DNA of 64,000 nucleotides from Corallococcus macrosporus DSM 14697 (lineage in GTDB: Bacteria > Myxococcota > Myxococcia > Myxococcales > Myxococcaceae), in contig NZ_CP022203.1 in the NCBI RefSeq assembly GCF_002305895.1, positions 3,078,501 to 3,142,500 on the forward strand, given 5' to 3'. The position numbers and the translations under genes were made by a program. This document shows positions 9,391 through 15,236 of the stretch, in pieces. Position 1 is the stretch's first letter; each line of letters begins with the position of its first letter. The notes under the pieces are model-generated. The model worked only from the letters and a program-made list of their open reading frames with translations, was not told where the DNA came from and made no database searches.

Positions 9391-11426
9391 CGCCTCCCAC
9401 CTTGGGCAATACGACGCCGGGGCGCGAGCTCAAGCGGCGCTTCGTGTGGCTGGGCCTGGCCATGCTGATGGGGCTGGGCCTCATCAGCATCCAGCTCTAC
9501 CGGCTGCAGATCACCCGGGGCGAGGAGTACGCCGCCAAGAGCGTGGCCAACTTCGTCAAGGAGGTGCGGCTGCGCGCCGACCGCGGCGTCATCAAGGACG
9601 CGCGCGGCACCATCCTGGTGGACAGCCGTCCGTCCTTCGACGCCTTCATCACCCCGGCCTTCTGCACCGACTGCTACGAGCAGGTCATCCCCCGCCTGGC
9701 GGAGCTGCTCCAGTGGGACGCGGACCAGCGCAAGAAGGTGGAGGACCTGGTGCGCATGGGGCGGCGCAACGCCCCGTTCCAGCCCGTGCCGGTGCGCGTG
9801 GACCTGTCGCGCGACGAGTACGACCGGCTGGCCGCGCGCCGGGACATCCTGGACGGCGTGGAGGTGGCGCCGGTGCCGCACCGGCACTACCGCACCAACT
9901 CCGTGCTGTCGCACGTGCTGGGCTACATGAACGAAATCACCCAGGAGGAGCTGGAGCGCCTCAACGGCGACGGCGCCCGCTACGCGCTGGGGGACTACAT
10001 CGGCCGGCGCGGCCTGGAGCGCTACTTCGAGCAGCACCTGCGCGGCACCGACGGCGTGCGCAAGGAAGTGGTGAACGCGCGGGGCCAGACGATTGAGGAG
10101 CTGAACGACAAGCTGGGGGACAACGCCGTGGTGGCGCCGCGGCCCGGCAGCAACCTGGTGCTGTCCATCGACATGCGGCTGCAGGAGGAGGCGGAGCGGG
10201 CCTTCCCCGGCGTGACGGGCGCGGTGGTGGCCATCGACGTCAACACCGGCTTCATCCGCGCGCTGGTGTCGCGGCCGGGCTTCGACCCCAACCTGCTCAC
10301 CGGCCGCGTGACGCCCCAGCAGATGGCGCTGCTGTCGCGCGACCCGCTGGACCCGATGATCAACCGCGTGGCCGCCGAGCACTACAGCCCGGGCTCCACC
10401 TTCAAGGTCGTCACCGCGCTGGCCGCGTTCAAGTCAGGCGCGTTCCGTCCGGAGACGGTGGTGAACTGCCCCGGCGGCTACCGGCTGGGCGCGCGGACGT
10501 GGCGCTGCCACAAGGACGCGGGCCACGGGCACATGGATGGCTACCAGGCCATGAAGACGTCGTGCGACACCTGGTTCTACAAGGTGGCGGACACCATCGG
10601 CCTGGACCCCATCGGGGAGATGGGCAAGTCGCTGGGCCTGGGCAGCCCCACGGGCGTCAACGTCGTGGCAGAGGTGCCTGGCATCATGCCGACCAGCGCC
10701 TACCACGACAAGGCGTCGCCCGGCGGCTACACCAAGGGCATGGCGCTCAACAGCTCCATTGGCCAGGGCGACAACAACGTCACGCCGCTCCAGCTCGCGC
10801 TGCTCTACGCGGCCATCGCCAATGGTGGCACGCTCTACAAGCCGCAGATGGTGAGCCGCATTGAGAACCTGGACGGGCAGACCATCGAGTCCTTCCAGCC
10901 GGAGGTGGTGCGCAGGGTGGAACTGCCCGCGCCGCACCTCAAGGCGGTCATCGACGGCCTGGTGAAGGTGGCGCACGAGCCCGGCGGTACCGCCTACCGC
11001 GCGCGGATGAACCACATGCGCGACAAGGACATCCTCGTCGCGTCCAAGACGGGCACCGCGCAGGTGGCCCGCCTGGGGGCCATTCGCCTGAAGACGCACC
11101 AGATGAGCTTCTTCGAGCGTGACCACGCCTGGTACGCGGGCTTCGCGCCGGCGGAGAAGCCGGAGCTGGCCATCATCGTGCTCAACGAGCACGGCGGCCA
11201 TGGTGGCTCGGACGCGGCGCCCACCGCGATGGCGGTGTTCCAGAAGTACTTCGACTTGAAGAAGCTGGACGCCACGGCGCCGCCGCCGCGTCCCAACCAG
11301 CCCTACACGCCGTCCTCCGTGAAGCGCGCGCCCCATCCCGACGAGGCGGCGCTGACGCGGGGCGTACGGCCACCGGCCCGGCTTCCGGGCGACGAAGAGG
11401 AACGCGCGCGTGCAACTGCGGATTGA
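9387..11426 (+). CDS. mrdA: Penicillin-binding protein 2 (elongasome transpeptidase)
   Basis: 679 residues from GTG 9387, overlapping the mreD stop as GTGA. One N-terminal membrane helix, a class B PBP dimerisation domain (ADRGVIKDARGTIL, IGRRGLERYFEQHLRG) and a transpeptidase domain with the three motifs: SxxK as S337-T-F-K340, S-C-D-T, and K554-T-G-T. It cross-links peptidoglycan in the cylinder wall together with RodA. A roughly 60-residue Pro/Arg-rich tail after the transpeptidase domain is longer than in E. coli PBP2. The 3' end overlaps rodA by 17 bases. Confidence 0.96.
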   Translation: MTPPTLGNTTPGRELKRRFVWLGLAMLMGLGLISIQLYRLQITRGEEYAAKSVANFVKEVRLRADRGVIKDARGTILVDSRPSFDAFITPAFCTDCYEQVIPRLAELLQWDADQRKKVEDLVRMGRRNAPFQPVPVRVDLSRDEYDRLAARRDILDGVEVAPVPHRHYRTNSVLSHVLGYMNEITQEELERLNGDGARYALGDYIGRRGLERYFEQHLRGTDGVRKEVVNARGQTIEELNDKLGDNAVVAPRPGSNLVLSIDMRLQEEAERAFPGVTGAVVAIDVNTGFIRALVSRPGFDPNLLTGRVTPQQMALLSRDPLDPMINRVAAEHYSPGSTFKVVTALAAFKSGAFRPETVVNCPGGYRLGARTWRCHKDAGHGHMDGYQAMKTSCDTWFYKVADTIGLDPIGEMGKSLGLGSPTGVNVVAEVPGIMPTSAYHDKASPGGYTKGMALNSSIGQGDNNVTPLQLALLYAAIANGGTLYKPQMVSRIENLDGQTIESFQPEVVRRVELPAPHLKAVIDGLVKVAHEPGGTAYRARMNHMRDKDILVASKTGTAQVARLGAIRLKTHQMSFFERDHAWYAGFAPAEKPELAIIVLNEHGGHGGSDAAPTAMAVFQKYFDLKKLDATAPPPRPNQPYTPSSVKRAPHPDEAALTRGVRPPARLPGDEEERARATAD

Positions 11427-12561
11427 GCGGCGGATGGTGCCCCACATCCCCTGGGGCCTCATCTTCTCCGTGCTGGCGGTGTGCGCGCTGGGCATCTGGA
11501 ACCTGGCCTCGGCGTCGCGGCCCCCGCACTCGCCGGTGTGGGGCTCGCAGATGCTGTACCTGGGGGTGAGCATCACCGCGGTGCTGGTGGTGTGCCTGGT
11601 GGACTACCGGTGGATCCAGCGCATGGCGCTGCCCATCTACGTCACCAACATCCTCCTGCTCATCGCGCTGCGCTTCTTCGGGCACACGGCCAAGGGCGCC
11701 GAGAGCTGGTTCGCCATTGGCCCCTTCCGCATGCAGCCCGCGGAGTTCATGAAGATTGGCGTCGTGTTGATGCTGGCCAAGGTCTACCACGACGACTTCC
11801 AGCCCAATGAGCCGTCCTATGGCCTGACGCGGCTGTGGAAGCCGGTGCTCGTCGTCCTCGTGCCCTTCACCCTGGTGCTGGTGCAGCCGGACCTGGGCAC
11901 GGCGATGATGATTGGCCTGTCGTCGCTCACCATCATCCTCTTCGGCAAGGTGCGCTGGTACCTGGTGGCCACGCTGGTGGCGGGCGTGCTCGCCGCGGGC
12001 ATCGTCATCTGGAACGACTACATCCGCGACGTGCCGGAGCCCCGGCCCACCATCGTCCGGCACCACCTGAAGAAGCACCAGAGCCAGCGCATCTCCGGCT
12101 GGTTGGACCCGGAGGCGGACCTGCGCGGCAGCGGCTACCACGCGGCGCAGTCGAAAATCGCCGTGGGCAGCGGCGGCGTGTCCGGCAAGGGCTGGCGCGA
12201 AGGCACCCAGACGGGCCTGCGCTTCCTGCCCGAGCAGCACACCGACTTCATCTTCTCCGTGTGGGCGGAGGAGCACGGCTTCGTCATGTGCATCCTCCTG
12301 CTGGTGCTCTACGGCGCCATCTTCATCTTCGGCCTGGGCGTGGGCTTCAACGCGCGGGACAGGTTCGGCGCCTTCGTCGCCGTGGGCGTGGTGGCCGTGC
12401 TCTTCTGGCAGGTGTTCGAGAACATCGGCATGGTGATTGGCCTGCTGCCGGTGACGGGAATCACCCTGCCGTTGATGAGTTATGGCGGCTCATCCCTGCT
12501 TTCCGTGATGCTCAGCATCGGCTTGCTGGTGAACATCAGCATGCGCCGTCACATGTTCTGA
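11410..12561 (+). CDS. rodA: Rod shape-determining glycosyltransferase RodA
   Basis: 383 residues from GTG 11410. SEDS-family polytopic membrane protein with about ten membrane segments. Key segments are AESWFAIGPFRMQPAEFMKIG, LVQPDLGTAMM, WREGTQTGLRFLPEQHTDFIFSV (read as two adjoining pieces) and the C-terminal LPLMSYGGSSLL. RodA polymerises lipid II into glycan strands and pairs with PBP2, whose gene overlaps it. Last gene of the mre/mrd operon. Confidence 0.96.
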   Translation: MQLRIERRMVPHIPWGLIFSVLAVCALGIWNLASASRPPHSPVWGSQMLYLGVSITAVLVVCLVDYRWIQRMALPIYVTNILLLIALRFFGHTAKGAESWFAIGPFRMQPAEFMKIGVVLMLAKVYHDDFQPNEPSYGLTRLWKPVLVVLVPFTLVLVQPDLGTAMMIGLSSLTIILFGKVRWYLVATLVAGVLAAGIVIWNDYIRDVPEPRPTIVRHHLKKHQSQRISGWLDPEADLRGSGYHAAQSKIAVGSGGVSGKGWREGTQTGLRFLPEQHTDFIFSVWAEEHGFVMCILLLVLYGAIFIFGLGVGFNARDRFGAFVAVGVVAVLFWQVFENIGMVIGLLPVTGITLPLMSYGGSSLLSVMLSIGLLVNISMRRHMF

Positions 12562-12689: not shown

Positions 12690-13382
12690 ATGCAGAGGAA
12701 GGGTGGCCAGAAGGCAGTCGGGAGCACGCGGGTGGAGGCGCCGGTGCGCGCGCCCGCGCGAGCGCCAGCACCGCAGGCCGCGGCGGTGGCGAAGGCGGCC
12801 CGCCCCGCGGTCGTCCCACCGCGTCCCGGTGGCAACGTGGCGACGGTGAGCCCCGAGCCAAGGCCCGCGTTCTCCCCGCTGATTGAGATGAATCAGGGGG
12901 AGGCCGAGCACCGCCACTTCCCCCGCGCCCAGCTCGCCACGCGCTTCGAGGTCTGGGTGGACGACGAGGCGGGTGAGCGGCGCTTCGAGGCCAGCCTCGT
13001 CTCCGTCAACGTCAGCGTCAGCGGGGCGTTCCTGGAGAGCACCTTCTACCTGCCGCTGGGCACGGTGCTCGGCGTGCGCTTCGCGCTGGAGCCGGACGCG
13101 GCGCCAGTGCAGGCGCGCGCGGAAATCGTGCGGGAGGAGCGGGGGAACGGGCCGGAGGGGCGCAGCGGCTTCGGGGTGCGCTTCCTCGACTTCAGCGGTC
13201 AGACGGAGGTGGCGCTGGCGCGGCTCTTCGTGGGGATGCGGCTGAGGGCCTTCGCGGAGGACTATCTCCAGTCCCAGCGGGCTCGCTCCCTGCCCAACGA
13301 GGTGGAACGCGTGGTGGACGTCCTGGCGGCCTGGGAGCTGCTCAAGGCGACGTCGTCCGTCTCCGACCCCTGGCAGGGCTGA
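12690..13382 (+). CDS. PilZ domain c-di-GMP-binding protein
   Basis: 230 residues from ATG 12690 with GAGG 7 bases upstream. The first 75 residues are a disordered Ala/Pro/Arg-rich extension. A PilZ domain follows (about 75-185): RHFPR gives the RxxxR motif and NVSVSG gives the [DN]xSxxG motif, so the c-di-GMP contacts look intact. The C-terminal 45 residues are helical. PilZ proteins transmit c-di-GMP signals to motility, polysaccharide or gene expression. It lies 128 bases after rodA on the same strand; a link to cell elongation is conceivable but unsupported. Confidence 0.9.
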   Translation: MQRKGGQKAVGSTRVEAPVRAPARAPAPQAAAVAKAARPAVVPPRPGGNVATVSPEPRPAFSPLIEMNQGEAEHRHFPRAQLATRFEVWVDDEAGERRFEASLVSVNVSVSGAFLESTFYLPLGTVLGVRFALEPDAAPVQARAEIVREERGNGPEGRSGFGVRFLDFSGQTEVALARLFVGMRLRAFAEDYLQSQRARSLPNEVERVVDVLAAWELLKATSSVSDPWQG

Positions 13383-13437: not shown

Positions 13438-13773
13438 TCAGGCCGACTTGCTGCTCGAAATCTGGCGGCGGCGTTCGGCCTGGTAGTGCGCGGAGCACAG
13501 CCCCTTCGAGCGCTGTTCGCGAGTACAGCCGTCCATCGTGCAGCGGCGGTCCAGGGAAACCAGGCTGGCGCCCGCCATCACCTTCGGGGGACGTCCCCGA
13601 CGGCGGCCAGCGGTGAGCGCGGAGGTGCTGGGCGCGGCGCTCCCCAGCCGGGGCATTCCGTCATTGAGCGCGCGCAGCATGCCGCGGCCAATGGCGTCTC
13701 CCAAGGCTTCGGCCCAGTTCACCATGGCCGGCGTCAGCGGGACGGAGGACAATTCTTTGCGAGGACGTGCCAT
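13438..13773 (-). CDS. Small AT-hook and zinc-motif protein, putative DNA-binding
   Basis: 111 residues. A helical N-terminal half is followed by GRRRGRPPK, an AT-hook core (RGRP flanked by basic residues) that binds the minor groove of AT-rich DNA. The C-terminal third holds CTMDGC and GLCSAHY, a Cys4-Cys...Cys2-His arrangement like small zinc fingers of the CxxxxC-x(n)-CxxH type. AT-hooks are rare in bacteria but known from the myxobacterial regulator CarD. No exact family is recognised. The gene is divergent from ppk2, and the 99-base gap is AT-rich for this genome, so it might act there. Confidence 0.72.
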   Translation of the reverse strand: MARPRKELSSVPLTPAMVNWAEALGDAIGRGMLRALNDGMPRLGSAAPSTSALTAGRRRGRPPKVMAGASLVSLDRRCTMDGCTREQRSKGLCSAHYQAERRRQISSSKSA

Positions 13774-13872
13774 GAATACTCCAGGTGAAAACAGTCAACC
13801 AACACAGACACTGCTCTGCGCCTATTTGGCGGTTGCAGTCATCGCTGTCAATACAACCTTGGAGGGTCTGTC

Positions 13873-14652
13873 TTGACTCGTAAACGATCTCAGAAAATTG
13901 ATGACAAGACTGCAAATGGATACGTATTTCCCGTATGTCCTCACGGCACTGTGACACTCGCAGCGGTCGACCCGTCTGTCTCGGCGGGTGAACACGCGAA
14001 ATATGAGAAGACGCTCAAGGCGCTCCAGGAGCGCGTCTTCGAGCTGCAGATACGCAACTACCTGGCAGGGCAGAAGGCCGTGGTCGTCTTCGAGGGCTGG
14101 GATGCGTCCGGAAAGGGCGGCGCCATTCGCAGGCTGACCACGCTGATGGACCCGCGTGGTTACAAGGTCTGGCCCATCTCCGCGCCCTCCGAGGAGGAGC
14201 AGCGACACCATTATCTGTGGCGCTTCTGGCGCAAGATTCCGGGTGCGGGCGAGGTGTGCATGTTCGACCGGAGCTGGTACGGGCGGGTGCTGGTGGAGCG
14301 GGTGGAGGGGCTCGCGAAGCCCGCGGCGTGGCGCCGGGCCTACGATGAAATCAATGCTTTTGAACACATGCTCACCGCGGACGGTGTGCGGATGGTGAAG
14401 TTCTTCATCCACATCGACAAGAAGACGCAGTTGCAGCGCTTCCGCGAGCGCGAGGCGGATCCGGCCAAGCGCTACAAGCTGGGGCCCGAGGACTGGCGCA
14501 ACCGGGCGAAGTGGAAGAAGTACGAAGCGGCCATCCAGGACATGCTGGACCGCACGCACCGCCCCGACGCGCCGTGGCACGTGGTGCCGGGCAACGACAA
14601 GCGCCACGCGCGGCTGGAGGTGCTGCGCCGCTGCGTGGCGCTGCTGTCGTGA
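13873..14652 (+). CDS. ppk2: Polyphosphate kinase 2 family protein
   Basis: 259 residues starting at TTG 13873 with GGAGGG 6 bases upstream. Hallmarks: Walker A FEGWDASGKGG (K81), PISAPSEEEQRHHYLWRFW, Walker B D132-R-S-W-Y-G-R, and the lid-region RFREREADPAKRYKL. Class I PPK2 enzymes transfer phosphate between polyphosphate and nucleoside diphosphates. The first 30 codons use AT-ending codons unusual here (ACT, AAA, TCT, GTA, TTT), unlike the rest of the gene. Lies opposite the AT-hook gene and converges on trxA. Confidence 0.93.
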   Translation: MTRKRSQKIDDKTANGYVFPVCPHGTVTLAAVDPSVSAGEHAKYEKTLKALQERVFELQIRNYLAGQKAVVVFEGWDASGKGGAIRRLTTLMDPRGYKVWPISAPSEEEQRHHYLWRFWRKIPGAGEVCMFDRSWYGRVLVERVEGLAKPAAWRRAYDEINAFEHMLTADGVRMVKFFIHIDKKTQLQRFREREADPAKRYKLGPEDWRNRAKWKKYEAAIQDMLDRTHRPDAPWHVVPGNDKRHARLEVLRRCVALLS

Positions 14653-14719: not shown

Positions 14720-15052
14720 CTAGGTGAGGGCCTTCTTCACGGCGTCTTCGATGCGGGCCTTGGGCACCGCGCCGACAATCTGCTCCACCACCTTGCCGCC
14801 CTTGAAGACGAGCAGGGTGGGGATGGAGCGGATGCCGTACTCCTGCGGCGTGTCCTGGTTCTCATCGATGTTGAGCTTGGCGAACTTCATCTGGCCCTTG
14901 TACTCGGTGGCCAGCGCCTCGATGGAGGGCGCGATGGCGCGGCACGGCGCGCACCACGTCGCCCAGAAATCCACCAGCACGGGCTCCTGGGAGTCCAGGA
15001 CCTGCTGCTTGAAATCGCCATCCCCGATGTTCGTCACGTCCGCGCCTGCCAT
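14720..15052 (-). CDS. trxA: Thioredoxin
   Basis: 110 residues from ATG 15052, with GGAGAC just upstream; a longer in-frame opening to 15142 has no ribosome site. Thioredoxin fold with LVDFWATWCAPCRAI (redox pair C-A-P-C rather than the usual C-G-P-C), the cis-proline segment RSIPTLLVFKGG and normal length. No signal peptide, so cytosolic. The CAPC centre may give a slightly different redox potential from CGPC. Confidence 0.95.
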   Translation of the reverse strand: MAGADVTNIGDGDFKQQVLDSQEPVLVDFWATWCAPCRAIAPSIEALATEYKGQMKFAKLNIDENQDTPQEYGIRSIPTLLVFKGGKVVEQIVGAVPKARIEDAVKKALT

Positions 15053-15236
15053 GGTGTCTCCTCGTGCCCTTTCCAGGCACCTCCGCCGCGTCCTGTAGTA
15101 CGCGTCCGGTGGGCCTGCAAGGATCGGCCGGCCATCAGCCAATCTGGCGGCTCAGATGCGGCTGGGTGGCGCTTGTTTCAACCATTTCCCCCAAGCGTCC
15201 CCCTCCGGGAGGGGTGGCTGGTGTAAGCTGGCGGGC

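Follow-up and report, generated by a model that had tools for sequence, protein, structure and literature searches.

An open reading frame in Corallococcus macrosporus DSM 14697 (positions 13438 to 13773, minus strand, of the 64,000-nucleotide stretch of DNA analyzed here, hereafter the window) encodes a 111-residue protein and lies divergent from ppk2 (PF03976; 13873 to 14652, plus strand), raising the question of what this protein is and whether it acts on its neighbor. The frame opens with ATG, and GGAG (13779 to 13782, minus strand), a likely ribosome-binding site, stands 5 nt 5' of it. A whole-genome search for full-length matches at E ≤ 1e-30 identified orthologs in 59 genomes, all from the window's own family, and 15 pairwise comparisons between orthologs gave dN/dS values of 0.066 to 0.290, indicative of purifying selection; with orthologs in so many genomes and these dN/dS values, the frame is a real gene. 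A chance reading frame or a wrong strand is ruled out by the dN/dS values and by conservation in an alignment of 25 hand-picked orthologs (A1; a wider set, A2, contains 27). The protein is not universal in the family, because 37 of the 96 genomes sampled have no full-length ortholog. It has no match among NCBIfam profiles or, by sequence, in the PDB. Fold searches of the PDB with a model of the protein returned nothing significant (best E 4.0), and tblastn against phage records reached E 0.04 at best, with no match over 80% of the query.

A preliminary description of this DNA noted that the gap between the two genes and the start of ppk2 are A/T-rich, and this holds relative to their surroundings: GC content is 50.5% in the gap (13774 to 13872) and 50.8% in the first 120 nt of ppk2, against 70.4% in the window. 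Equal A/T richness is found at six separate sites across this stretch, one of them the gap. The gap contains TTGACA (13846 to 13851, minus strand), a -35-like element 78 nt before the ATG, followed after 18 nt by a conserved block, AAATAG (13822 to 13827, minus strand), which is probably -10-like and reads AAATAG or AAATAA in many loci. An exact TTGACA facing the gene within 140 nt is found in 50 of 54 distinct loci (those with distinct gene DNA), with or without ppk2, which identifies the A/T-rich gap as the gene's own promoter. The protein would be made from this promoter and may bind the gap in autoregulation. TTGACA and gap are both missing from the remaining four loci (L115, L116, L119, and L120), where upstream GC content is 0.67 to 0.74; the gene is nonetheless kept there, so an AT-hook in its product is not kept for the A/T-rich gap alone. 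In this region (13774 to 13880 in the window) and at related loci, a CGAGTC block overlaps the start of ppk2 at a distance of 20 to 45 nt upstream from TTGACA. The block is kept in 41 of the 50 loci, including 22 of 30 in which ppk2 was not detected, and can be read either as a fossil of the ppk2 start or as an upstream promoter element.

Conservation of ppk2 follows a different course from that of the gene. It is adjacent and divergent in 16 of the 59 ortholog-bearing genomes, lies on another contig in one (G090), and has no match at E ≤ 1e-70, our threshold for absence, in 42. Counted by distinct locus, a full ppk2 stands next door in 16, a fragment in 4, and none in 31, with 3 not judgeable. 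The four fragments (L033, L062, L098, and L111) are ppk2 N termini close upstream of the gene with the remainder gone, which suggests ppk2 decay. The preliminary description had linked the protein to ppk2 through the shared gap. A local ppk2 regulator acting there would suit the divergent gene order seen in the window, as in those 16 genomes, and the A/T richness of the gap, but ppk2 is absent from most ortholog-bearing genomes, the gap and promoter outlast it, and the gene is kept without the gap. We therefore regard this reading as extremely improbable, and ppk2 is probably an incidental neighbor.

Other neighbors are conserved. In 50 of the 54 loci, the same strand carries a thioredoxin gene, trxA (14720 to 15142, minus strand), upstream of the gene, and a convergent gene with a PilZ domain assigned by Pfam (12690 to 13382, plus strand) lies downstream in 48; the neighborhood also includes a gene (11410 to 12561, plus strand) that we take to be of the rodA type. 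The constancy of trxA, which ends 5 to 16 nt before the gene in the four deep-branching loci without a gap (the L116 start being extrapolated), could point to a redox-linked regulator in which TrxA reduces the cysteine site of the protein and so tunes DNA binding. In most loci, however, several hundred nucleotides and a separate promoter lie between trxA and the gene, and the synteny may be passive, making such a redox link quite unlikely.

In sequence and in an AlphaFold2 model, this small, strongly conserved myxobacterial protein has a three-part architecture, joining a predicted helix, a putative AT-hook, and a phage-like zinc knuckle. The AT-hook-like motif (GRRRGRPPK, residues 56 to 64; 13582 to 13608, minus strand), which includes RRRGRPPK at residues 57 to 64, is a low-confidence coil in the model. 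Pfam AT_hook (PF02178) scores the protein at 8.2 bits (E 3.5), below the 17.4-bit cutoff, and at E ≤ 1 it finds 8 of the 27 sequences in A2. RGRP appears in 1.3% and [RK]RGRP in 0.05% of 100,000 shuffled versions of the protein. Because HemA, encoded in the same window, likewise has RGRP, and because the Pfam score is below cutoff, RGRP by itself is weak evidence. The case for a predicted AT-hook rests on conservation, and a lack of it among homologs is what the preliminary description had named as one refutation: G60, R61, P62, and K64 are invariant in all 25 A1 orthologs, and exact RGRP is present in 24, with PGRP in the other (L059). Of the gap-less loci, those whose genes A1 includes under the handles L055, L056, and L059 also retain GRP and the lysine. 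At the motif level the protein counts as an AT-hook protein, its orthologs keeping an (R)GRP core between basic residues, and we would expect it to bind A/T-rich DNA in the minor groove. A single AT-hook per chain binds weakly unless multimerized.

Two further elements precede the hook. RPRK at residues 3 to 6 (13756 to 13767, minus strand) may be half an AT-hook; M1 and R3 are invariant in A1. Residues 15 to 38 (WAEALGDAIGRG; 13660 to 13731, minus strand) are predicted to form a conserved Gly/Ala-rich helix that is amphipathic by a permutation test (hydrophobic moment 0.42, p 0.004) and in which A21, G25, A27, G29, and R30 are invariant across A1. We propose that this helix is a self-association segment. 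The preliminary description mentioned neither the helix nor the promoter. The AlphaFold2 model contains two helices, at residues 15 to 38 and 94 to 108, and is confident for the zinc region alone and moderately so for the first helix; because pTM is 0.31 to 0.33, it does not establish the shape of the whole chain.

The third element is a zinc-knuckle motif (residues 78 to 96; 13486 to 13542, minus strand) followed by a basic helix. Its residues C78, C83, C93, and H96, spaced C-x4-C-x9-C-x2-H, are invariant in A1 (25/25) and in all 27 members of A2, the adjacent Y97 is invariant in A1, and a C/C/C/H spacing of this kind occurs in 0.03% of 100,000 shuffles. The four residues are predicted to bind zinc. 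The model is well defined here, with a mean pLDDT of 87 over residues 81 to 90 and 93 over residues 91 to 100. Pfam Zf_WRKY19 (PF24906) matches at 24.2 bits (E 3e-5), below its 27-bit cutoff, and 23 of the 27 A2 members match it at E ≤ 1. With both motifs conserved throughout A1, the preliminary interpretation is borne out insofar as it described a conserved, likely DNA-binding AT-hook-like and zinc-motif protein of 111 residues, although not in its link to ppk2.

The knuckle resembles those of phage nucleases. A profile of phage HNH endonucleases (phrog_5351) matches residues 76 to 104 (E 2.2e-6), a match confined to the knuckle, and the module C-x4-C...RGLC-x2-HY is shared with phage HNH/endonuclease VII proteins and Zf_WRKY19. 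Comparing the local fold of the zinc region with viral proteins gave no match at E 0.001; named HNH entries rank 2 (rmsd 2.4, 36 columns, E 0.05) and 4 (rmsd 0.5, 28 columns, E 0.10), and p30 of Myxococcus phage Mx8 overlays the region with an rmsd of 0.6 over 27 columns (E 0.78). Given this common module, the protein could be a phage HNH endonuclease remnant, domesticated and now serving in defense or mobile elements, a reading made very unlikely by the gene's fixed chromosomal place beside trxA and pilZ and by a Pfam scan in which no HNH or endonuclease VII domain was found. Unlike in the phage proteins, the knuckle is here joined to an AT-hook-like stretch and a helix. With the likeness limited to the knuckle and no nuclease domain, identity as an HNH nuclease is ruled out. 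In an actinobacterial protein from Microtetraspora (L122, 3857 to 4957, plus strand), an endonuclease VII domain is preceded by several zinc knuckles in tandem.

One of the closest known systems is CarD, the HMGA-like regulator of Myxococcus, which is likewise a myxobacterial protein with RGRP AT-hooks and is partnered with a zinc protein, CarG. Our literature search on AT-hooks in Myxococcus and other myxobacteria led to CarD only, with no description of a helix/AT-hook/zinc family, and a search combining AT-hook, nucleoid-associated protein, zinc, and dimerization found nothing. The 111-residue protein differs from CarD in having one AT-hook-like motif where CarD has three or four, in carrying the zinc motif in the same chain, and in having no RNA polymerase-binding domain (no Pfam match to CarD_TRCF_RID, PF02559). 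Three CarD_TRCF_RID genes are found elsewhere in the genome, and with PF02559 missing from the protein, kinship with CarD is ruled out. A CdnL-sized CarD_TRCF_RID gene with a 164-residue frame lies about 13 kb before the window (G000:C1:3065230-3065406, L153). The CarD/CarG pair raises an alternative in which the protein is a protein-protein adaptor whose zinc knuckle would bring in RNA polymerase or some other factor while the AT-hook merely tethers it, as if the two chains had been combined. Published work on CarG describes it as zinc binding but not DNA binding, working through the AT-hook protein CarD (PMC8156234), which lends the adaptor some plausibility. On the other side, nucleases have a similar zinc module, and in paralogs the module accompanies DNA-binding parts; we consider an adaptor unlikely.

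The xenogeneic silencers Lsr2 and H-NS are also small, with an RGR-type minor-groove motif and, as may be the case here, a self-association segment. According to one study, AT-hook-like Q/RGR motifs serve both silencers, with RGR favored in low-AT genomes (PMC4466236). The 111-residue protein nevertheless has neither silencer's domain, and its zinc knuckle is an addition; with no Pfam match at E ≤ 10, membership in either family is ruled out. CdbA, a nucleoid-associated protein of Myxococcus xanthus, comes from the same bacteria and may share a chromosome-organizing role, but it is a ribbon-helix-helix protein with a GC-rich consensus site (PMC7156744).

The genome encodes further proteins with the zinc module. 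One paralog (L002) has two AT-hook-like stretches, another (L003) has a long K/A-rich tail, and in a third (L004) the knuckle follows an N terminus read by eye as an XRE-type helix-turn-helix. A 312-residue paralog (L070, 2119 to 3057, minus strand) combines a zinc knuckle with a long K/A-rich, histone H1-like tail. The K/A-rich type may resemble VegA, an old histone-like protein. In CarD, AT-hooks and the H1-like tail replace each other across species (PMC9304148), and a similar alternation is seen among the paralogs. Other families of the order also have proteins built from helix, AT-hook-like stretch, and zinc knuckle. A genome from one of these (G137) has six copies (L128, L138, L144, L148, L150, and L151), all with M(A/P)RP or MPRG at the N terminus and a like helix and knuckle; the strict RGRP/PGRP pattern is present in four and missing from L150 and L151. 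Across 24 distant open reading frames examined, 9 have the strict pattern and 15 fail it, among them L127 and L131 with GGRPR and L135 with VGRPRK, indicating that it is the knuckle that stays constant and that the hook varies more beyond the orthologs. Two matches from Gemmatimonadetes (L124 and L125) proved to be chance matches inside an unrelated protein.

The reading that we favor, at somewhat better than even likelihood, is that of a small, self-associating, A/T-preferring DNA-binding protein with an architectural (nucleoid-associated) or broad regulatory role, a proposal drawn from sequence and model. Helix 15-38 would pair the subunits, and the flexible RRRGRPPK arm would occupy the minor groove at A/T-rich tracts, the probable targets. 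The zinc knuckle, together with the basic helix (HYQAERRR) that follows it, would touch DNA at a second point. A dimer or larger assembly could hold several A/T-rich sites, which would imply an architectural or broad regulatory role rather than that of a private ppk2 regulator.

Myxobacterial genomes are very large and GC-rich. Neither Lsr2 (PF11774) nor H-NS (PF00816) was detected in any of the 21 genomes searched, with 150 candidates scored per genome for H-NS in most. A bolder possibility, which we hold only tentatively and think rather doubtful, is that the protein is the founder of a class of Myxococcota AT-hook/zinc nucleoid proteins that stand in for H-NS or Lsr2: in a genome of 70% GC, their self-associating helix, RGRP arm, and phage-nuclease-like knuckle would jointly cover A/T-rich stretches, which are often of foreign origin. 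The family is conserved and combines an RGRP arm with a helix that likely self-associates, and it offers a specific candidate to fill this vacancy. If the favored reading is true, a knuckle common to phage HNH nucleases would serve in a chromosomal DNA-binding protein, and the exchange of AT-hooks and histone H1-like tails known from CarD would extend to a second myxobacterial family.
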